The notes beneath the pieces were generated by a model. It searched no databases, was not told the origin of the DNA, and saw only the letters and a program-made list of their open reading frames with translations. A stretch of 37,745 nucleotides of DNA from Lachnospiraceae bacterium (GTDB lineage Bacteria; Bacillota; Clostridia; Lachnospirales; Lachnospiraceae). The stretch spans positions 1-37,745 of the forward strand of contig JAIEEY010000242.1 in NCBI GenBank assembly GCA_029067205.1, read 5' to 3'. This document shows positions 3,167 through 18,066 of the stretch, piece after piece. The position numbers and the translations under genes were made by a program. Every line of letters starts with the position of its first letter. Within the stretch, counting starts at the first letter, position 1.

Positions 3167-3329
3167 TAAGGAGCGTAGGAAAATAAGTGATACAGATTGC
3201 GCAGGATATTTCTTCGAGGGTGTATATCAAAAAACGTAGGCGTAGCGGGCTACGGCGAGGCTTTTTGATATGCACAATCGGAGAAATAGACAAGTCAAGA
3301 TGTGTCAGTTATTTTTCTACAGATCCTAA
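3167..3329. repeat. MITE-like inverted-repeat element, long copy
   Basis: About 160 bp. The two halves are imperfect inverted repeats of about 70 nt each. The left end reads AGGAGCGTAGGAAAATAAG; the right end, reverse complemented, reads AGGATCTGTAGAAAAATAAC. Further in, both arms share TATTTCT, ATATCAAAAA and CGTAG, converging on a small central hairpin. It encodes no protein. The right terminus with AGACAAGTCAA recurs at 15428-15499. It occupies the gap between the membrane-anchored protein gene and the ATPase gene. Confidence 0.72.
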
Positions 3330-9170: not shown

Positions 9171-10895
9171 CTATTGTGGGAGCTGTTGCGGAAGCATTTT
9201 TCCATCTACATCAAAAATGTAAGGAATACCGCCAATTTCAACGATGCCTGTCTGCATATTTCCGTTGATGTCAAAATAATAAATGCTCTCATTGATCGTT
9301 ACCAGTCCAATAACCATGTGTCCGTCTGATTCATAATACTTTGCAGTGACACCGTCATTGAACCAACCTGTATACATTGTACCATCTGCTGCAAACAGGT
9401 AAGAAAGTCCATTTAGGTTCACAACACCTGTCAACATATGCCCTAATCCATCAAAGAAATAGGTTCTTCCATCAATTGTCTGCCATCCAGTTACTCTATG
9501 TCCATCTTCCATTGACAGATAATAGGTATATACACCGTCGTTGAACCAGCCACAAACCATCGAACCATCTGCCGCAAACAGGAAAGTCTGATCACCAAGC
9601 GTCTGCCATCCAGTCAGCATGACCCCATTTGCATCAAAGAAATAGGTCTTTCCTTCGATTGTCTGCCATCCAGTCACTCTGTGCCCATCTTCCATTGACA
9701 GATAATACGTATTAAAACCATCATTAAACCAGCCATATGCCATCGTACCATCAATTGCAAACAGAAAAGTCTGGTCGCCGATTGTCTGCCATCCAGTCTG
9801 CATGATTCCATTGATATCAAAATAGTAATATTTATTATTAACAATACTAAGCCCAGTGAGCATATGTCCATCTGTTGAGAAGAATCGCCTTCCATCAGGG
9901 AAATCCAAAAGTCCGACATACATCGCACCATCTGCCGCAAAATAATAGGTCAGTCCATTCAGATTTTGAAGTCCAGTGAGCATTTTGCCTTCTGTATCAA
10001 AGCAATACATTCCTGGTCCGATTGGTGTGAATCCCACAGCCATAACTCCGTCTGGATGCAGATAATACATTGCATCATCAAGCGGCAGCCAGCCCGTAAC
10101 CATACGTCCAGCAGGGTCAAGATAATATTTTGCAGTTCCAAGGTCAAGCCAGCCCCGCTGCATTTTATAGTTTATATAGAAATATAGATAGCCCTTTCTT
10201 GGAACCCATCCCGTGTTAACGATGCTGGTGGAATAGTCTTTCAAGGCATAGTCCATATCCACATCTCCGTTGATTCCTGGTATACTTCCCTTACAGGAGT
10301 ACTGCCATATAGACGCATCAGGGATTTCACATGCAGCTGCCCATTGTGCTACCCATTTGTCATAGAATACTGGTCCAATCTTGTTCTTAAACCAGTTTGT
10401 ATTGGAGTAGACCATCGGATAATACCCCTCTGCCTCAATCATAGCACAGAAAGTATTTGCCATGAGAGACAGTGTCTCTGGAGATAGAGATTTCTGGACA
10501 TTATCCTCGACATCCCAAACAACAGGATAAGATACCTGAAGATTCTGAATCGCATCTAGGACAAATTGAGCCTCTAATGCTGCCTCCTCAACGCTTGTTG
10601 CATATGAATATATGTACACACCTGTTTTGATGCCCATTTGTTGCGCACCAAGCATGTTGTACTGAAAATAGGGATCGATTCCAGACTTTGTACTGCCGAC
10701 TTTGATAAAAGCAAATGAGATGCCGCTTTGTGCCGCTTCCGGCCAGTTAATCGCTCCCTGATATTTTGAAACATCAATTCCTTGTTCTACAGCTGCTGCT
10801 TCTGAATGAAACCCTACTATACTGCAGAGCATACAGATCAAAAGAAGTGTACAGATACTACGTGTAAATTTGTTGGCTGATTTTTGTTTTCTCAT
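9171..10895 (-). CDS. Secreted GH25 lysozyme with choline/cell-wall-binding-type repeats
   Basis: 574 residues. A signal peptide (about 1-35, hydrophobic core ICTLLLICMLCSIVG) precedes a glycosyl hydrolase 25 muramidase domain (36-225). The domain has Asp41 in GIDVSKYQG and the DxE pair Asp128/Glu130 in VVWDVED, plus GDVDMDYA near its end. The rest is about 17 repeats of roughly 20 residues (pattern YYFDxxGxMxTGW), the glucan/cell-wall-binding type. Within these, a 61-residue block is duplicated in tandem. GH25 enzymes cut the MurNAc-GlcNAc bond of peptidoglycan. It lies 43 bp after hisB with no terminator between them, so it may be read from the his promoter, an odd combination. AAAGGAGG lies upstream of the ATG. 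Confidence 0.95.
   Translation of the reverse strand: MRKQKSANKFTRSICTLLLICMLCSIVGFHSEAAAVEQGIDVSKYQGAINWPEAAQSGISFAFIKVGSTKSGIDPYFQYNMLGAQQMGIKTGVYIYSYATSVEEAALEAQFVLDAIQNLQVSYPVVWDVEDNVQKSLSPETLSLMANTFCAMIEAEGYYPMVYSNTNWFKNKIGPVFYDKWVAQWAAACEIPDASIWQYSCKGSIPGINGDVDMDYALKDYSTSIVNTGWVPRKGYLYFYINYKMQRGWLDLGTAKYYLDPAGRMVTGWLPLDDAMYYLHPDGVMAVGFTPIGPGMYCFDTEGKMLTGLQNLNGLTYYFAADGAMYVGLLDFPDGRRFFSTDGHMLTGLSIVNNKYYYFDINGIMQTGWQTIGDQTFLFAIDGTMAYGWFNDGFNTYYLSMEDGHRVTGWQTIEGKTYFFDANGVMLTGWQTLGDQTFLFAADGSMVCGWFNDGVYTYYLSMEDGHRVTGWQTIDGRTYFFDGLGHMLTGVVNLNGLSYLFAADGTMYTGWFNDGVTAKYYESDGHMVIGLVTINESIYYFDINGNMQTGIVEIGGIPYIFDVDGKMLPQQLPQ
9429..9794 (-). repeat. Tandem duplication of 183 bp (61 codons) in the lysozyme binding domain
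   Basis: Two adjacent in-frame blocks, 9612-9794 and 9429-9611, encode near-identical sequence: both start GWQT.GDQTFLFA and contain YYLSMEDGHRVTGWQTI at the same offset. The stretch around TGCCATCCAG recurs exactly 183 bp apart on the plus strand (9481 and 9664). Each block covers three wall-binding repeats. Confidence 0.9.
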
Positions 10896-11549: not shown

Positions 11550-12842
11550 TTAATCCTCAAAACGCACACGTATTGAATTAGCGTGCGCAGTGAGCCCCTC
11601 TTTCCTGGCAAAGAGCTCAATATCTTCATGAACCTTTTTTAAAGCCTCCCTAGAATAAGAGATAACGCTGGATTTCTTCACATAGTCATCCACATTCAGC
11701 GGCGAGAAGAATTTTGCCGTACCATTTGTTGGCAGTACGTGATTAGGACCAGCATAGTAATCTCCGAGCGGCTCTGACGAGTATTCCCCGAGGAAGATTG
11801 CACCTGCATTCCGGATTTTTGTCATAATGTCAAACGGATTTTTTGTCAAAATTTCAAGATGCTCAGAAGCAATCTCGTTGACTGCTTCGATGGCCATCTC
11901 CATATCTGGTGCAACAAGGATATATCCATAGTTGTCAAGCGATTTTTGTATGATCTCCCTGCGCTCAAGTACTTTGACAAAGGAATCAACTTCGTCAGAT
12001 ACTTTCTTTGCAAGCTCTTCGCTTGTGGTGATCAGGATTGACGATGCCAGCTCGTCATGCTCTGCCTGAGACAGCAAATCTGCTGCCACATATCTTGGCA
12101 TAGCGCTCTCGTCGGCAAGCACAAGGATTTCGGAAGGACCAGCGATCGAGTCGATGCTCACATGTCCGTATACAGCACGTTTTGCAAGCGCCACAAAGAT
12201 ATTTCCGGGACCAACGATCTTGTCAACCTTCGGAATCATTTCTGTACCATATGCGAGTGCTGCAATCGCCTGTGCGCCGCCAACTTTATAGATTGCATCT
12301 ACACCTGCAATATCCGCTGCGACAAGAGTTGCGGAATTCACTTTTCCGTCAGCACCAGCAGGCGTTGTCATGGTAATATTGGGAACACCTGCAACTTTGG
12401 CAGGAACAATATTCATAAGCGTTGTCGAAGGATAAGCAGCTTTTCCGCCGGGAACATAGACACCCACATTCTGCATCGGCGTGATCTTCTGGCCTAATAT
12501 TGTACCGTCCTCTTTGGCGTCAAACCAGCTATTTCTTTTTTGTTTTTCATGATATGTACGGATATTGGCTGCTGAGTCCCGCATCACTTGTATGAAACGA
12601 GCATCCAACTCCTGATATGCCGCATCGATTTCCTCTCTGGTAACTTTAAAGTTTTCTTTTGTCGTGGTACATTTGTCAAATTTCTGAGAATACTCAAAAA
12701 TTGCTTCTTCCTTGCGTTCTTTCACATTTTCAATGATATCCGCCACAATCTTTTCATAATCCCCATAGTCGTTTGTACTTCTTTTTAATAGATTTTCAAG
12801 CAGATTTTGCTTGGTATCATTCGTTAATTTTACAATTCTCAT
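11550..12842 (-). CDS. hisD: Histidinol dehydrogenase HisD
   Basis: 430 residues from the ATG at 12842. Family motifs are present: YVPGGKAAYPSTTLMNIVPA, VGGAQAIAALAYGT, KIVGPGNIFVALAKR, DSIAGPSEILVLAD and LSQAEHDELAS. It oxidises histidinol to histidine in two NAD-dependent steps with Zn. The ATG follows AAGGGG by 7 nt; a longer reading frame from a TTG at 12878 would add 12 residues encoded by the hairpin repeat and is unlikely. The repeat copy at 12843-12906 fills the hisG-hisD gap and may control hisD translation. Confidence 0.97.
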   Translation of the reverse strand: MRIVKLTNDTKQNLLENLLKRSTNDYGDYEKIVADIIENVKERKEEAIFEYSQKFDKCTTTKENFKVTREEIDAAYQELDARFIQVMRDSAANIRTYHEKQKRNSWFDAKEDGTILGQKITPMQNVGVYVPGGKAAYPSTTLMNIVPAKVAGVPNITMTTPAGADGKVNSATLVAADIAGVDAIYKVGGAQAIAALAYGTEMIPKVDKIVGPGNIFVALAKRAVYGHVSIDSIAGPSEILVLADESAMPRYVAADLLSQAEHDELASSILITTSEELAKKVSDEVDSFVKVLERREIIQKSLDNYGYILVAPDMEMAIEAVNEIASEHLEILTKNPFDIMTKIRNAGAIFLGEYSSEPLGDYYAGPNHVLPTNGTAKFFSPLNVDDYVKKSSVISYSREALKKVHEDIELFARKEGLTAHANSIRVRFED

Positions 12843-12906
12843 AGTTATACCCCTTGCGTACTCCGGCACGCATACCAATCAAGTTTGAAAGTGACCTTCT
12901 TCAAAT
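12843..12906 (-). repeat. Two-hairpin RBS-proximal repeat, copy A (before hisD)
   Basis: On the minus strand: hairpin 1 with arms TTTGAAG and CTTTCAAA, linker TTGATTGG, then hairpin 2 TGCGTGC-CGGA-GTACGCA (12855-12872) with one G-U pair. AGGGGTATAACT follows, then the hisD ATG. The 5' arm overlaps the hisG stop codon. It is homologous to 16502-16567 and 17998-18066. Confidence 0.88.
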
Positions 12907-13557
12907 TTCCTCCTTAAGTGCCTGTAAAAGCTTTTTGATCCTCTCCGCCTCCATCTTCATGCTGACCTGGTTGACGATCATGCGCGCAGAGAGCGGACAG
13001 ATTTCCTCTAAGACCTCCAGTCCGTTTTCTTTTAAAGTAGAGCCTGTCTCAACAATGTCAACGATGACATCACTGAGCCCGACAATCGGTCCAAGTTCGA
13101 CAGAACCGTTTAGCTTGATGATGTCAACCGTTTGGTGCTTCTGATTGTAAAAATAATCCTTGGCAATCTTGGGATATTTGCTTGCCACGCGGATCATCTC
13201 ATGATGCTGCAATAGCTCCTTCGCTGAGTCAGGACCACATACACACATTCTGCACTTGCCAAACCCAAGGTCAAGTACTTCATATACGCGTCTGTTTTCC
13301 TCCAAAATGGTATCACTGCCCACTACCCCAATATCCGCCGCACCATATTCCACATAAGTGGGCACATCCGGACCTTTTGCAAGAAAAAATCTAAGCCTTA
13401 GCTCTTCATTGACAAAGATAAGTTTCCGGGATTTCTTATCCTTCATCTCCTCACAGGTAATGCCTATTTTTTCAAGAAGCTTCAGAGTTTTATCTGCAAG
13501 CCGTCCCTTACCGAGCGCAAAGGTAAGGTATCGCATGTCTTGTGTCTGATTAATCAT
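12901..13557 (-). CDS. hisG: ATP phosphoribosyltransferase, short form HisG
   Basis: 218 residues, which is the HisG-S form: the catalytic core without the C-terminal regulatory domain, active only with HisZ. Motifs include FALGKGRLADKTLKLLE, YVEYGAADIGVVGSD, KLNGSVELGPIVGLSD and DIVETGSTLKENGL (PRPP loop). It catalyses the first, feedback-regulated step of histidine synthesis. The ATG at 13557 has GGGGAGGT 6-8 nt upstream; the internal Met8 is an alternative. It is 18 bp downstream of hisZ. Confidence 0.97.
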   Translation of the reverse strand: MINQTQDMRYLTFALGKGRLADKTLKLLEKIGITCEEMKDKKSRKLIFVNEELRLRFFLAKGPDVPTYVEYGAADIGVVGSDTILEENRRVYEVLDLGFGKCRMCVCGPDSAKELLQHHEMIRVASKYPKIAKDYFYNQKHQTVDIIKLNGSVELGPIVGLSDVIVDIVETGSTLKENGLEVLEEICPLSARMIVNQVSMKMEAERIKKLLQALKEEI

Positions 13558-13575
13558 ATTAAATACCTCCCCTTT

Positions 13576-14748
13576 TCATAGAATTATTACTTTCGAAAAA
13601 TTGTTGTCCTCGGCAAACTTCGTGTACTGCTCTTCTGGCTGTTCCAGCTTCATCAGCACTGTGGAATAGCCTTGTTCCCGATACTTTCTTGCGCTTGCTG
13701 CTGCGCCACTGAAATCCTTTGCATATAAAAGCAGCAGATTTTTGTTTTCGAGCGCAGGACAGACTTTTTGTCTGGTAAGTGCTGTCACGAGATCATCGAT
13801 CATGACAACAAATCCAGTTGCAGGCGCAGGTTTGCCAAACTTTTCCAAAAGGCTGTCATATCTGCCTCCCTTCGCGATCGCGCTGCCAGCCTGATAGGTA
13901 TATGCATTGAAAATGACGCCTGTATAATAATTGTACTTGCTGACCATCGCAAGGTCAAAAGATATGTATCGGTCTACACCATAGACTTTTAGCAGATCAT
14001 ATACCTGTTTTAATCGTTCGATTGCCTTCTGAGAACGTGAGTTGTCCGCAGCTTCCAGTGCTTTGTCTAATATTTCACAGGAACCAAACAGGCTGTTTAC
14101 CCCAAGAAGTGCCTGAATGGATTGTTCTGGTATTTTTTTATCCAATAGAAGTTCCTGCGCGCCAAATTCATTTCTGCTTGATATAAATTCGCGCAGTGCG
14201 AACTCCGTCTCCTCATCAAGTTGTGCATGGGCACATAAGCCCTTAAAATAGTCAATCTGACCTACGGACACCTGAAAATCCTTTAATCCGGAATTTAACA
14301 GCGCCTCGACAAGCATGGCTATCATTTCCGCGTCTGCCTCTGGAGAAGCATCGCCAAGAAGTTCTGCACCCATCTGTGTTGTCTCTTTTAATTTTCCCTG
14401 CAGATTGTTTGTATTGATAAAATTATTTCCCAGATAACAAAACCGCAGCGGAATGCTCTCATCCATGAAATACTTGGCGGCACACCTCGCTATGGAGGGT
14501 GTAAAATCAGGTCTTAGAACCAGCGTGTTCCCTTCCTTGTCGAAAAACTTGTACAGTTCCTTGGAAGGTATGGTTCCGATCTCACGGCTGAACACATCAA
14601 AAAATTCAAAGGTCGGCGTCTGAATATCCTGATACCCATAGCTGTGAAGCTTATCGCCAAATAATTTTTGAATATTTTGCTTGTTGGCATATTCCTTTCC
14701 ATATATATCACGCACCCCTTCGGGGGTATGTACGAGTCGTTTTCCCAT
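13576..14748 (-). CDS. hisZ: ATP phosphoribosyltransferase regulatory subunit HisZ
   Basis: 390 residues, resembling the catalytic core of histidyl-tRNA synthetase: HTPEGVRDIYGKEY at the N-terminus, motif-2-like VLRPDFTPSIARCAAKYF, and AIAKGGRYDSLLEKFG. The tRNA anticodon-binding domain is not evident. Pairing with a short HisG identifies it as HisZ rather than HisS. It forms the hetero-octamer with HisG-S and carries histidine feedback. It is the first gene of the operon, with TGAGGA just upstream of the ATG. Confidence 0.96.
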   Translation of the reverse strand: MGKRLVHTPEGVRDIYGKEYANKQNIQKLFGDKLHSYGYQDIQTPTFEFFDVFSREIGTIPSKELYKFFDKEGNTLVLRPDFTPSIARCAAKYFMDESIPLRFCYLGNNFINTNNLQGKLKETTQMGAELLGDASPEADAEMIAMLVEALLNSGLKDFQVSVGQIDYFKGLCAHAQLDEETEFALREFISSRNEFGAQELLLDKKIPEQSIQALLGVNSLFGSCEILDKALEAADNSRSQKAIERLKQVYDLLKVYGVDRYISFDLAMVSKYNYYTGVIFNAYTYQAGSAIAKGGRYDSLLEKFGKPAPATGFVVMIDDLVTALTRQKVCPALENKNLLLLYAKDFSGAAASARKYREQGYSTVLMKLEQPEEQYTKFAEDNNFSKVIIL

Positions 14749-14783
14749 AAAATCCTCAGTATCCTTTCTGGCAAATTTTTACT

Positions 14784-14827
14784 TTAATGCATTAACGCGC
14801 TGCCTTGTTAACAAATTAACATAGCGC
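14784..14827 (-). promoter_or_regulatory. his operon leader: 5' hairpin and palindrome
   Basis: Just after the predicted start site the transcript can form GCGCT...AGCGC enclosing TGTTAA-TTTG-TTAACA (14797-14827). The 12-bp perfect palindrome TTAATGCATTAA follows at 14784-14795. The leader is about 80 nt, too short for a T-box with antiterminator. These could be an operator or an mRNA 5' stabiliser; the function is inferred. Confidence 0.4.
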
Positions 14828-14836
14828 ATTATACGA

Positions 14837-14865
14837 AGTATACACTTTTTTATCCACCATGTCAA
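14837..14865 (-). promoter_or_regulatory. SigA-type promoter of hisZGDB
   Basis: On the minus strand, TTGACA (14865-14860) and TATACT (14842-14837) have a 17-nt spacer. The -35 box overlaps the TGA stop codon of recU (14862-14864). Initiation is expected near 14830, about 80 nt before the hisZ ATG. Confidence 0.85.
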
Positions 14866-15407
14866 CCACTATCCTTCTCCTGATCATTCAGGTCAAGTTG
14901 TATCATATCCAGATAAGGTACGATTTGTCCTCCTTTGTGTTTCATAAAATACTGCTCTTTTAATTCTTCAAAGCGAAAGCTCTTTCTGCCGCCATTTTCC
15001 ATTCTATCCCAGAATATATTCAATTCACGTATGCTCATATAGTACATAATGTCACGTGCAGTAAAATAGATCAGAAAAAAAGCGATGCCGCTTTGCCTGT
15101 CAAAATCCCTCATAAACTGAACCTGATGCGGGTGTATCTTCTGGAGAGTGAACAGGTCAACTGCACACTCCTTGGCATCAAAACAGACTGGGATTCCCTG
15201 GACAACACCTATGTAATCAACCGTACTCTTTTGGTCAAAGTAGGCAAGCGTGATATGACGAGTCTCTTTATCAATTGTGATCGGCGTAATCGGCGTCGGC
15301 ACTTTTTGAATCAGAGCCAGTCCGTTATCCCTGTACTTCTCATTTGTCATATTAATCATTTCTTCCAAAAGGGAACCGCGAAGTCCTCTGGAATTCCAAG
15401 TCGCCAT
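14862..15407 (-). CDS. recU: Holliday junction resolvase RecU
   Basis: 181 residues. The pattern follows B. subtilis RecU: NSRGLRGSLLEEMIN, a KVPTPI segment, KSTVDYIGVVQG (Asp64) and CFDAKE (Asp77, Lys79), then HPHQVQFMRDF and FWDRMENGGRKSFRFEEL. The nuclease core is kept, with Asp77 where B. subtilis has Glu (FEAKE). The protein is about 25 residues shorter at the N-terminus than the Bacillus one. It cleaves four-way junctions in recombinational repair and chromosome segregation. The ATG has GGAGAGGG upstream. The inverted-repeat element at 15428-15499 separates it from the pseudouridine synthase gene. Confidence 0.93.
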   Translation of the reverse strand: MATWNSRGLRGSLLEEMINMTNEKYRDNGLALIQKVPTPITPITIDKETRHITLAYFDQKSTVDYIGVVQGIPVCFDAKECAVDLFTLQKIHPHQVQFMRDFDRQSGIAFFLIYFTARDIMYYMSIRELNIFWDRMENGGRKSFRFEELKEQYFMKHKGGQIVPYLDMIQLDLNDQEKDSG

Positions 15408-15427
15408 ATTGCCCTCTCCTTCAATAC

Positions 15428-15499
15428 TTAGGAACTGTAAAGAAATAACCTTTCATTTAGACAAGTCAATATGCATAAGTTATTTTTTACAGTTCCTTA
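15428..15499. repeat. MITE-like inverted-repeat element, short copy
   Basis: About 72 bp. The terminal inverted repeats are TTAGGAACTGTAAAGAAAT on the left and, reverse complemented from the right, TAAGGAACTGTAAAAAAT. The interior carries AGACAAGTCAA followed by AGTTATTTTTTACAG, matching the right end of the long element at 3289-3327. The TAA at its right terminus (15497-15499, minus strand) is the stop codon of the adjacent pseudouridine synthase. Confidence 0.75.
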
Positions 15500-16501
15500 C
15501 TGCATCAGTTTTTCGAACAGTGTGGGAGGCGGACATTCCACTACCCTGCCCGATGTTTTGGAAAACTTTTGTTCGGAATCTTTCGGGAATATCAGCTTAT
15601 GAGCATGCAGCAGCTGGCAGTGGACACCTTTCCTTGCAAAAATCTGATTCACAGCAGCGTCTCCATATTTGACATCTCCGATGATCGGATATCCTAATGC
15701 CGACAAGTGGGCGCGAATCTGATGTGTTTTCCCAGTAAAAAGCTGTACTTCCAACAATGTTATGTCATTGGCTGTACGGATTGACTGGAAAGCCGTGTCA
15801 ATAAACACAGAATCCTTTTTTAATAAATCGGGAATATCTTCCTTGTTTTGATAAACAACCACTTTATTCTGCGAAATATCTTTATATAGATAGCCTGTCA
15901 CACGTTCTTTTGCTCTCAGCTCGCCAGATACCAGACAATAATAATATTTTTCAAGGGTTTTATCCTTGATAATACGACTCAGATACTGACTTCCTGCAAG
16001 CGTTTTACCACAAACCACCATTCCTGAAGTATTCCGGTCAAGCCTGTTGCAGACCGAGGGCTTAAAGGTTCCCAGTGAATCTGCTGTGAGGACACGCCGC
16101 GAAAGCAGATAGCCGATCAGCCATTCGTTAATGCTGATATCTTCTGGTCTCGACTTCTGAGACAAGATTCCTGACGGTTTGTCAACGATCAGGATATGGT
16201 CATCCTCGTATATAATATGTAATGCTTCCAGCTTTTGATAGGCATGGACATACTGTGTGGTATTCATGGGATCCACAGATTTTCCACTAAATTTCCCATA
16301 TGTATCATCTGCAAGGAAAAGCTTTACCTCATCATCAATACATAGCTTTTCCTTTCCATCAGCTTTTTTCCCGTTTAGGACAATATTCTTTTTCCGCAGC
16401 ATCTTATAGATAAAACTGTCAGGCGCATTCTGAAGCAGTCTTTTCAAATATTTATCAAACCGCTGTCCTGCCTCATTGGGAGAAATCCTTATTAAAATCA
16501 T
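15497..16501 (-). CDS. RluA-family pseudouridine synthase (RluC/D type)
   Basis: 334 residues from the ATG at 16501 (AAGAGG upstream). An N-terminal S4 RNA-binding domain (about 10-60: AGQRFDKYLKRLLQNAPDSF, NIVLNGKKADG) precedes the catalytic domain. The catalytic motif is NRLDRNTSGMVV (Asp of the RLD motif); other motifs are ILIVDKPSGILSQK and GKTHQIRAHLSALGYPIIGD. It isomerises uridines in rRNA, probably 23S; the target cannot be told from sequence. A TTG start 12 codons upstream would be encoded by the hairpin repeat and is rejected. The stop codon is supplied by the adjacent inverted-repeat element, so the original C-terminus may have been trimmed. Confidence 0.95.
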   Translation of the reverse strand: MILIRISPNEAGQRFDKYLKRLLQNAPDSFIYKMLRKKNIVLNGKKADGKEKLCIDDEVKLFLADDTYGKFSGKSVDPMNTTQYVHAYQKLEALHIIYEDDHILIVDKPSGILSQKSRPEDISINEWLIGYLLSRRVLTADSLGTFKPSVCNRLDRNTSGMVVCGKTLAGSQYLSRIIKDKTLEKYYYCLVSGELRAKERVTGYLYKDISQNKVVVYQNKEDIPDLLKKDSVFIDTAFQSIRTANDITLLEVQLFTGKTHQIRAHLSALGYPIIGDVKYGDAAVNQIFARKGVHCQLLHAHKLIFPKDSEQKFSKTSGRVVECPPPTLFEKLMQ

Positions 16502-16567
16502 AATTATACCTCTTGCGTGCTCCGGCACGCATACCAATCAATGTTTGAAAGTGACCTTCTTTCAAAC
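16502..16567 (-). repeat. Two-hairpin RBS-proximal repeat, copy B (before RluA-type gene)
   Basis: On the minus strand: hairpin 1 GTTTGAAAG-AAGGTCA-CTTTCAAAC, 9 bp perfect; linker ATTGATTGGTA; hairpin 2 TGCGTGC-CGGA-GCACGCA, 7 bp perfect; then AGAGGTATAATT and the ATG. This is the best-paired of the three copies and a useful reference for the family. Confidence 0.9.
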
Positions 16568-16613
16568 TTACATCCCCCATAACACATATCAACAATATTT
16601 TATTCTAAAATGT

Positions 16614-17180
16614 TTATAAAGAAATATCACACAAAAGCGTCAAAATCTCCGACTCCTTTTTTCCGGCTTCCAAAGCCTGAAGCTGGTTTAAGCGCTCTAT
16701 AAAGCGTGTCTTTTCATGAAAAATCTTGATTGTTATGTTCTTGATGCTGTTTTGTTTTAGAATACCCTGTATGTGTGCTTCACAGGCAGATATATCACAG
16801 CCTGGAAACTCCGTATATCCAATCAGGTTATTGCCACGCACGGCAAAACAGTTCACCGGAAAATTGGAGCGGTACGAAGTCAGATATAGACTGTAAATGA
16901 CAGGGACATCACCCTCCTGCCTGGCAATCTCCTGATAAACTGTTTCACTGAACTTAGGAATTTTAAAGTACATGACAACCGACACGAGACTTTTGCTTGA
17001 AGGCAGCATGCCTAATACGGCAACAACTGTCAGAAGATTCTCCTTTTTACCTGTAGAAAAATATCCCAACAGAAATACCGCAGCCGATATCAAAAAATAT
17101 GCCGCTGTGCGAATGATTACTCTTTTCCGTTCATACGGAGGATATGCAAAGTCCCCTTTTTTCGGTCTTGGTATGTTCAT
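16614..17180 (-). CDS. Two-helix membrane protein, unknown function
   Basis: 188 residues, not recognised. A basic N-terminus (MNIPRPKKGDFAYPPYERKR) is followed by two hydrophobic segments, IIRTAAYFLISAAVFLLGYF (about 22-41) and LLTVVAVLGMLPSSKSLVSV (about 49-68). The C-terminal 110 residues form a soluble, probably cytoplasmic domain with mixed alpha/beta character and a C-terminal helical segment. It lies between the SDR and the pseudouridine synthase on the same strand, 55 bp from the SDR stop, so it is probably co-transcribed. Similar small proteins seem to occur in Lachnospiraceae, but no function can be assigned. Confidence 0.8.
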   Translation of the reverse strand: MNIPRPKKGDFAYPPYERKRVIIRTAAYFLISAAVFLLGYFSTGKKENLLTVVAVLGMLPSSKSLVSVVMYFKIPKFSETVYQEIARQEGDVPVIYSLYLTSYRSNFPVNCFAVRGNNLIGYTEFPGCDISACEAHIQGILKQNSIKNITIKIFHEKTRFIERLNQLQALEAGKKESEILTLLCDISL

Positions 17181-17235
17181 CTGTTATCTCCTGATCTGTA
17201 ATAATGAGTTCCTTGTGCCCTAAAAAGAGCAGGGA

Positions 17236-17997
17236 TTATTTTAAACACTGCATCGCCTTTAAAATGGCTCTGTGCGGAATGATTTTGGCAGCGACATCAA
17301 AGCTCTTGATCCATGCGCTGTACACAGATCTCTCATGCTTGTGATAAGAGTCTGTGATCGCTCTTTCCACAACCTGGTCTGCACGGACAAGTGTAAGCTT
17401 TTTCACCGCAAGTGTGCTCCCTGTTTTCTCCGCAATATCAAAGAAAGGGGTGTCTACTGGTCCAGGGCAGACTGCGGTCACATAGATTTTCTTAGACCGA
17501 AGCTCCTGATTCAATGCCCTGGAGAAACTGAGTACATAGGATTTTGTCGCCGCGTACACTGCAAAATTTGGCTGTGGCAAAAATGCAGCACTGGAGGCAA
17601 GCTGAATGATCCTGCTGTTTTTCTTCATATAGGGAATACACAGATACGTCATCTGAGTTAATGCCCTGCAGTTTACATCTATCATACCAAGTTCTTCACT
17701 GATATTGGAAGCGGAAAATTCTCCCATAATGCCATAACCCGCACAGTTGACCAGCATACGAATCACTGGTTTCTCATCAGCGAGAAGTTTTTTGAACCGT
17801 TCCATCTGTTCCTCATCTGTAATGTCCATGTCAAGAACACGTGTTGTGTGCTCAAGATACTGTGCTGCTTCGAGCATTTCCTTTTTGCGGCGCGCAATCA
17901 TCCAGATCTCATCGATATTGTGAAAGACATTGTCCAGCTGCAGAGCAAATTCTACGCCCAGACCAGAGGACGCACCTGTAATGATTATGATATTCAT
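17236..17997 (-). CDS. Short-chain dehydrogenase/reductase (SDR)
   Basis: 253 residues from the ATG at 17997, with AGGAGG upstream. It is a classical SDR: the cofactor loop TGASSGLG lies at residues 8-15, followed by LVNCAGYGIMG, a catalytic Ser in IIQLASSAAF, YAATKSYVLSF (YxxxK) and PGPVDTPFF. The residues after the first strands (MIARRKKEM) suggest NADP preference. The substrate is unknown; it resembles the YqjQ/DltE-type reductases. A TTG 12 codons upstream is in frame but lies in the hairpin repeat and lacks an RBS. Confidence 0.92.
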   Translation of the reverse strand: MNIIIITGASSGLGVEFALQLDNVFHNIDEIWMIARRKKEMLEAAQYLEHTTRVLDMDITDEEQMERFKKLLADEKPVIRMLVNCAGYGIMGEFSASNISEELGMIDVNCRALTQMTYLCIPYMKKNSRIIQLASSAAFLPQPNFAVYAATKSYVLSFSRALNQELRSKKIYVTAVCPGPVDTPFFDIAEKTGSTLAVKKLTLVRADQVVERAITDSYHKHERSVYSAWIKSFDVAAKIIPHRAILKAMQCLK

Positions 17998-18066
17998 ATT
18001 TATACCTCCTGCGTGCTCCAGCACGCATACCAATCAATAATTAGAAAGTGACCTTCTTTCAAACTA
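17998..18066 (-). repeat. Two-hairpin RBS-proximal repeat, copy C (before SDR gene)
   Basis: On the minus strand: hairpin 1 has GAAAG-AAGGTCA-CTTTC as its core, a T-T mismatch, then five more pairs (TAGTT with AATTA). The linker is TTGATTGGTA. Hairpin 2 is TGCGTGC-TGGA-GCACGCA with a changed loop base. GGAGGTATAAAT and the ATG follow. Substitutions relative to copy B mostly keep both stems paired. Confidence 0.88.

Follow-up and report, generated by a model that had tools for sequence, protein, structure and literature searches.

A two-hairpin repeat directly before start codons in a Lachnospiraceae genome, a probable mobile element supplying a replacement ribosome-binding site

Results

Copies of the element in the window

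Three copies of a two-hairpin repeat of about 65 bp, each fused to the ribosome-binding site of a different gene, lie in the window, that is, the whole 37,745-nucleotide stretch of contig JAIEEY010000242.1 from a Lachnospiraceae bacterium (assembly GCA_029067205.1, hereafter G000). G000 is a metagenome-assembled genome (MAG), 97.9% complete with 8.7% contamination, and the close relative used for comparison, G015, is a MAG of the same genus that is 86% complete. All three copies are on the minus strand, and covariance-model matches at 12843-12906 (copy A, 70 bits), 16502-16567 (copy B, 88.5 bits) and 17998-18064 (copy C, 86.9 bits) bear out the positions given in an earlier reading of the letters alone (the sequence-only reading). 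Copy A precedes hisD (11550-12842, ATG at 12842), which encodes histidinol dehydrogenase (PF00815, E 5e-181). Copy B precedes the gene of an RluA-type RNA pseudouridine synthase (15497-16501, ATG at 16501; PF00849, E 1.6e-27). Copy C precedes a short-chain dehydrogenase gene (17236-17997, ATG at 17997; PF00106, E 5.3e-36) and is also present in G015. All three genes are on the minus strand as well.

The order of parts is the same in each copy, as had been described: hairpin 1, the linker TTGATTGGT, hairpin 2 and a G-rich Shine-Dalgarno (SD) sequence. The distance from the last G of the SD to the ATG, also read as equal, is 7 nt in copies A to C. In copy B, hairpin 1 (16543-16567) has 9 bp, hairpin 2 (16514-16531) has 7 bp, and the SD AGAGG with the tail TATAA occupies 16504-16513. 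Copy C contains a hairpin 1 with altered outer pairs (18040-18064), a hairpin 2 of 7 bp (18010-18027) and the SD GGAGG with TATAA (18000-18009). In copy A two bases are lost from hairpin 1 (12883-12906) and its stem is shortened, hairpin 2 (12855-12872) has one genuine G-U pair, as had been noticed, and the SD AGGGG with TATAA (12845-12854) ends 2 nt ahead of the ATG. Identity to copy B over 59 nt is 78% for copy A and 86% for copy C; folding z-scores are -3.44 for copy B and -2.74 for copy C, both with the two hairpins formed, and -0.04 for copy A. The re-paired outer stem claimed for copy C was not upheld: the pairing is with the copy's own upstream flank and is taken as chance, because the orthologous copy in G015 carries the ordinary CTTTCAAAC arm. 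The hisG open reading frame (ORF) at 12901-13557 (PF01634) stops at a TGA (12901-12903) inside hairpin 1 of copy A, and at several other places the nearest upstream frame likewise ends within a copy.

Copies in the host genome and their position

Analysis of the window's genome revealed a family far larger than three copies. The hairpin-1 core, with up to 2 mismatches allowed, gave 59 matches against 1 for the reversed control pattern, which argues that the family is not a product of chance. Three of the 59 cores fell outside the model matches (C173, C375, C489) and were rejected as chance matches in other sequence. The covariance-model search of the host genome, proposed in the sequence-only reading, used a model built from 31 copies with matches taken at E up to 1; it gave at least 87 matches in G000 (150 candidates scored) and at least 84 copies in G015 (86 candidates scored). 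The consensus is approximately GTTTGAAAG-AAGGTCA-CTTTCAAAC for hairpin 1, the linker TATTGATTGGTA, which includes TTGATT, then TGCGTGC-CGGA-GCACGCA for hairpin 2, AGGGG and TATAA, and it contains stop codons in all three frames. Consistent with the view that no named family fits, no curated Rfam family matched in the window or in the loci of ten relatives.

The sequence-only reading held that copies lying mostly away from start codons or in random orientation would be an inert repeat. The opposite was found: in 75 of the 87 matches in G000 an ORF of at least 40 amino acids starts in the same sense, at -6 to +7 nt relative to the match end, seven others have an ORF start 14-36 nt away and five have none. 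Among the 75, the spacing between tail and start codon is 2 nt in 49, 3 nt in 12, 1 nt in five, 0 nt in two and 6-8 nt in three, and the tail was not recognised in four. A start-like codon occurs 0-3 nt past the tail in 78 of the 87 matches, two of these being upstream tandem members read as TTG. Of 54 copies measured, 48 have the last G of the element's SD 6-8 nt ahead of the start codon, and 7 nt is close to the optimum usual for this distance. A native SD-like core (GGAG, GAGG or AGGA) is found within 20 nt upstream of the element in 35 of these 54 copies, and in 26 of the 35 it lies 3-6 nt away. Judged by eye from their N-terminal sequence, without a database (the window genes, assigned by Pfam matches, excepted), the downstream genes include serS, hisF, gyrA, fabF, birA, coaX, greA and folA types. 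No shared pathway is evident among them, as had been proposed from the three genes of the window.

Empty sites and insertion junctions

Comparison of orthologous gene starts within the genus revealed empty sites. For hisD the element is present in two of the 30 orthologs read, those of G000 and G015 only. The empty site reads aaggaggagct ATG in G007 and the filled site in G015 reads aaggatgag, element, ct ATG; the junction is thus GGAGGAGCT when empty and GGATGAG, element, CT when filled, a clean insertion 2 nt ahead of the ATG with no duplication of the target. At ricT the sequence in seven relatives is gtgaggtagatagat ATG or close to it, and in G000 and G015 it is interrupted just before its final bases, with two bases to the left of the element differing; the empty site contains a short AGAT repeat, so that target duplication is ambiguous there. 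At fabK all ten relatives read are empty and G000 alone carries a short copy without hairpin 1. The pseudouridine synthase gene carries the element in two of 30 orthologs read, G015 included, where the flanks have diverged too far to place the junction exactly; fabF carries a copy in G000, G015 and G003 and none in eight others; and at holB the junction is not clean. These comparisons, and the empty sites of hisD, ricT and fabK in particular, show that the element has inserted between the native SD and the start codon.

Among genes shared by G000 and G015 the element is present in both at 33 of 34, a rate that is biased because the G015 stretches were chosen for holding elements, and at three genes (C151, C46:2408 and C152) one genome has a tandem where the other has a single copy. 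The flank to the left of the element mostly ends in AA, like the element's own tail, with 75-80% A at each of the last two bases (51 flanks), and tandem copies share this AA junction.

Probable takeover of the ribosome-binding site

Substitutions between G000 and G015 at 33 orthologous copies numbered 4 in 164 sites of the SD, 2 in 165 of the tail and 82 in 1117 of the upstream flank. The SD and tail of the element together changed at 6 of 329 sites (1.8%), the displaced native 20 nt at 48 of 595 (8.1%; 30 pairs) and the 20 nt before control genes, that is, 35 genes without the element taken from 96 candidates, at 18 of 699 (2.6%). By Fisher's test the element differs from the displaced region (P 5e-5) and the displaced region from the controls (P 1e-5), and the element is like the controls (P 0.5); SD-core classes alone, a small sample, gave 5 of 76 displaced against 5 of 148 control. 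Since the SD and tail are constrained like the controls and the displaced region is unconstrained, the element's SD is probably the working ribosome-binding site.

Pairing and exposure were compared in the 50 of 87 copies that met the criteria. Pairing with the anti-SD at the 16S 3' end is -10.2 kcal/mol for the element's SD against -7.2 kcal/mol for the displaced flank, a difference that may be biased toward the element by decay of the native flank after insertion. Exposure of the element's SD is 0.59, compared with 0.50 when element bodies are shuffled and 0.475 for the native SD in the joined empty site.

Conservation of the hairpins

Across genera, 94.7% of the cells in an alignment of 60 distinct rows are paired, against 83.0% after shuffling, and two-sided changes occur at 13 of 16 pairs, against 7.0 in shuffles; the rows were fitted to the model and some come from one and the same genome. 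The long-hairpin version of family f2 was excluded from alignment A4. When 17 lineages were folded singly, hairpin 1 formed in all 17 and the expected hairpin 2 in 15, the two without it being G083 and the Blautia copy. Within G000 no covariation above shuffles was found among the copies, and orthologs of G000 and G015 showed 1 two-sided kept pair and 49 one-sided stem changes, 25 of which keep and 24 of which lose the pair. A lack of covariation across genomes, which the sequence-only reading had named as a further sign of an inert repeat, was not borne out: stem changes between genera are compensatory, although those within the genome alone are not. Copies without hairpin 1 persist before genes. 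As the hairpins are conserved across genera, show no recent selection for pairing and can lack hairpin 1 before genes, they may matter to the spreading lineage and not to the host gene.

One copy in Lachnospiraceae bacterium IMSAGC_003 (L331, near 4103), directly before a start codon, has no hairpin 2 and keeps hairpin 1, TTGATT and an SD; hairpin 2 too may be dispensable after insertion.

Three further indications were set aside. The lower substitution of hairpin 1 (32/811 against 82/1117 in the upstream flank, P 0.002) is probably biased, because copies were selected via hairpin 1. A strand asymmetry, G-U compared with A-C pairs, as proof of action as RNA, was undecisive, at 41 to 23 between genera (the 60 rows) and 15 to 16 within the genome. 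Pairing between linker and SD as a general switch was rejected, since own pairs averaged -1.00 kcal/mol against -1.13 kcal/mol when permuted, and 178 of 200 permutations were at least as good; such a switch may exist in a single subfamily (G166, G232, G322, S29_Bin8), where some linker bases are able to pair with the SD.

Distribution

A model scan gave matches in 19 of 60 genomes, the window's own included, and all 19 belong to its genus. Model scans, each counting the own genome, gave matches in 13 of 397 genomes for the family, 12 of 392 for the order, including a second family, and 4 of 391 for the class, in sparse and strictly filtered samples where a non-match does not establish absence. 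About a dozen other genera of the family, and two other families, contain diverged subfamilies whose architecture and position are the same and whose stems are re-paired. Each carrier lineage read has its own subfamily; the order of parts is the same, the position mostly so, and a native SD often lies upstream. G1032, of another family, contains at least nine copies, most of them behind an SD-like flank, and arrays of at least three tandem units precede genes in L315 (coaD by eye), L157 and L418. Among named genomes, 63 of 66 stretches were titled Lachnospiraceae or Blautia; the other three (L291, L298, L301; Bacteroidetes/Cryomorphaceae) have no hairpin 2 and were dropped as chance. Viral contigs gave no match to the one exact pattern searched, and phages and plasmids gave none with copy B as query.

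Other repeats were seen in passing. A different repeat with many matches in the genus occurs at L097:4189-4373 (contig C484 of G000), on the other strand upstream of TTGGAGGTTGTAATATG, and the stretch L111:3298-3366 (contig C383 of G000) was repeatedly matched elsewhere in several genus members. The window contains a 30-nt direct repeat (3287-3316 and 15458-15487, 87% identical), possibly another small repeat, one copy of which overlaps a 72-nt inverted repeat (3175-3320), and tandem repeats of 180-183 bp (9349-9949) within a minus-strand ORF (9171-10895).

Discussion

A probable non-autonomous mobile element

Overall, our analysis makes it very likely that the repeat is a non-autonomous mobile element at translation starts that supplies a replacement ribosome-binding site. 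Such a DNA element of about 65 bp, made up of hairpin 1, the linker with TTGATT, hairpin 2, SD and TATAA, would enter the gap between a gene's SD and its start codon with a single orientation, as a rule stopping 2 nt short of the start codon. The gene would still be translated, now from the element's SD, because a strong SD followed by a suitably long spacer forms the end of the element, and the old native SD would decay after the takeover. The upstream gene running into the element would be closed, because the consensus has stops in all three frames. Movement would depend on an enzyme acting in trans, and the hairpins may serve mobility, for example in recognition of folded single-stranded DNA.

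A narrower version of this explanation is put forward only tentatively: integration would recognise starts as such (SD and start codon), land 2 nt before the start codon and use a mobilisation chemistry of its own. The element would then be a start-site-specific transposable element that repays its host with a better ribosome-binding site and has been amplified separately in several Clostridia families.

Several points weigh against a mobile element of this kind. No mobilising enzyme was found in G000 or G015, both incomplete MAGs, from which it could for that reason be missing, and no transposition was observed. Twelve of the 87 matches, two of them upstream tandem members, have no ORF of at least 40 amino acids starting directly after them, and 3 of the 16 best-scoring copies belong to this group. 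The argument from the displaced SD depends on 30-33 gene pairs of two incomplete MAGs. Selection for good SD spacing could add to the sharp peak at 2 nt. SD exposure does not change when the element body is deleted in silico (0.59 against 0.59, P 0.6), so that the body appears neutral for exposure and help from the hairpins is unsupported.

Alternative explanations

It is possible, though we consider it unlikely, that the element is an IS200/IS605 palindrome derivative or a REP sequence moved by a Y1 (HUH) transposase on folded single-stranded DNA. Elements of the IS200/IS605 type insert strand-specifically and without target duplication, and palindromic derivatives of them exist. The hairpins near both ends, the single orientation (with the gene in 75 of 87 copies), the one clean junction at hisD without target duplication, the left flanks that mostly end like the element's own tail and the junction shared by tandem copies agree with this origin. 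However, G015, 86% complete and with at least 84 copies, has no match to the Y1 transposase (PF01797), and G000 has one intact Y1 gene and one broken place, with no such ends seen by eye at either. No GTAG or GTGG foot was found, the consensus having mostly AA before hairpin 1 and GGTA before hairpin 2, and the A-rich left flank holds no fixed tetranucleotide. In G000 the IS200-type transposase gene at L139 (contig C222) is broken by stop codons.

Slightly less likely again is insertion anywhere, followed by survival of only those copies that serve as the ribosome-binding site of a needed gene. The constraint on the element's SD and its near-optimal 7-nt spacing would be expected under such survival, and three of the 16 copies scoring at least 90 bits (C241:1413, C370:5315, C495:42) have no ORF start within 7 nt. 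Yet consensus-like copies should then mostly scatter, whereas an ORF starts at 0-2 nt in 11 of these 16 and at 6-7 nt in two others, and survival requires very many lost insertions.

The sequence-only reading had left a choice between a mobile translation-control cassette and a common regulon RNA. The mobile cassette fused to the ribosome-binding sites of unrelated genes is retained, and translation control and the regulon RNA are not. A regulon RNA, in which the two hairpins would be a conserved translational switch or a protein-binding site coordinating many genes, is improbable. It would account for the retention of both hairpins and TTGATT across genera and families, and for the subfamily in which the linker can pair with the SD. 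Against this, the targets show no evident common pathway by eye and no functional relation conserved between species, insertion sites vary among species, and linker-SD pairing overall is not above permuted. The SD is also more exposed than with shuffled bodies, copies without hairpin 1 stay in place, and no selection for pairing is seen among recent orthologous copies.

More improbable still is a retroelement that spreads by reverse transcription and whose copies lacking hairpin 1 are 5' truncations. The constant 3' end would fit, as would the many short copies whose start is close to the foot of hairpin 1, and the fabK copy absent from all 10 relatives read. Against it, no reverse transcriptase (PF00078) exceeds the family cut-off in the incomplete genomes of G000, which has one weak fragment, and G015, which has none, although 25 of 38 genus genomes exceed it, the loss of half of hairpin 1 at C482:34504 looks like a later deletion, and the short copy at C479:44742 is a full copy in the relative G013.

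Comparison with known repeats

Searches limited to open-licence PMC papers turned up no account of such an element. The features of a classical miniature inverted-repeat transposable element are absent: the ends GTTTGAAAG and GGGGTATAA are not mutual inverted copies, and hisD shows no target site duplication. The element resembles the ends of IS200/IS605 in its subterminal hairpins, strand-specific insertion and lack of target duplication, and differs in having no fixed tetranucleotide, no matching transposase found and the spacer between SD and ATG as its target. The hairpin and tetranucleotide rules of that group are those given in PMC6006769.

As far as the accessible parts of the sources go, the nearest published relative in position is the TAACTGA direct repeat of marine Beggiatoaceae, and REP and BOX repeats are nearest in kind. 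The TAACTGA repeats are oriented, lie within several nt (largest class 1 nt) of the start codons of many genes, contain three-frame stops and form tandem sets, all of which the element shares; about 90% of the repeat-bearing regions are without an SD (PMC4679880). Unlike these 7-nt units, for which the available text describes no hairpins, the element is 65 bp long, structured and brings its own SD. REP/REPIN sequences with TnpAREP/RAYT (PMC8266576, PMC6006769) are likewise short hairpin repeats, many per genome, of lineage-specific types and probably non-autonomous, to judge from the portions available; the element differs in lying at start codons and in having no match to the partner transposase in G015. 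BOX, RUP and SPRITE of Streptococcus pneumoniae are also small interspersed repeats, overrepresented between convergent genes and judged parasitic by the authors, without a link to gene function; fusion to a ribosome-binding site, as in the element, is not described in the text available (PMC3049150).

Implications

The spacer just before the start codon is an expected risky place for an insertion, and the element would persist there by bringing the signal that it displaces. It occupies 75 gene starts in one genome, including those of hisD, serS, gyrA, hisF and fabF (from N-terminal sequence). If the explanation is true, it shows how selfish DNA can change the way translation begins at numerous genes while leaving them intact; the element would constitute a natural portable ribosome-binding site and would raise the question of how DNA is directed to a translation start.

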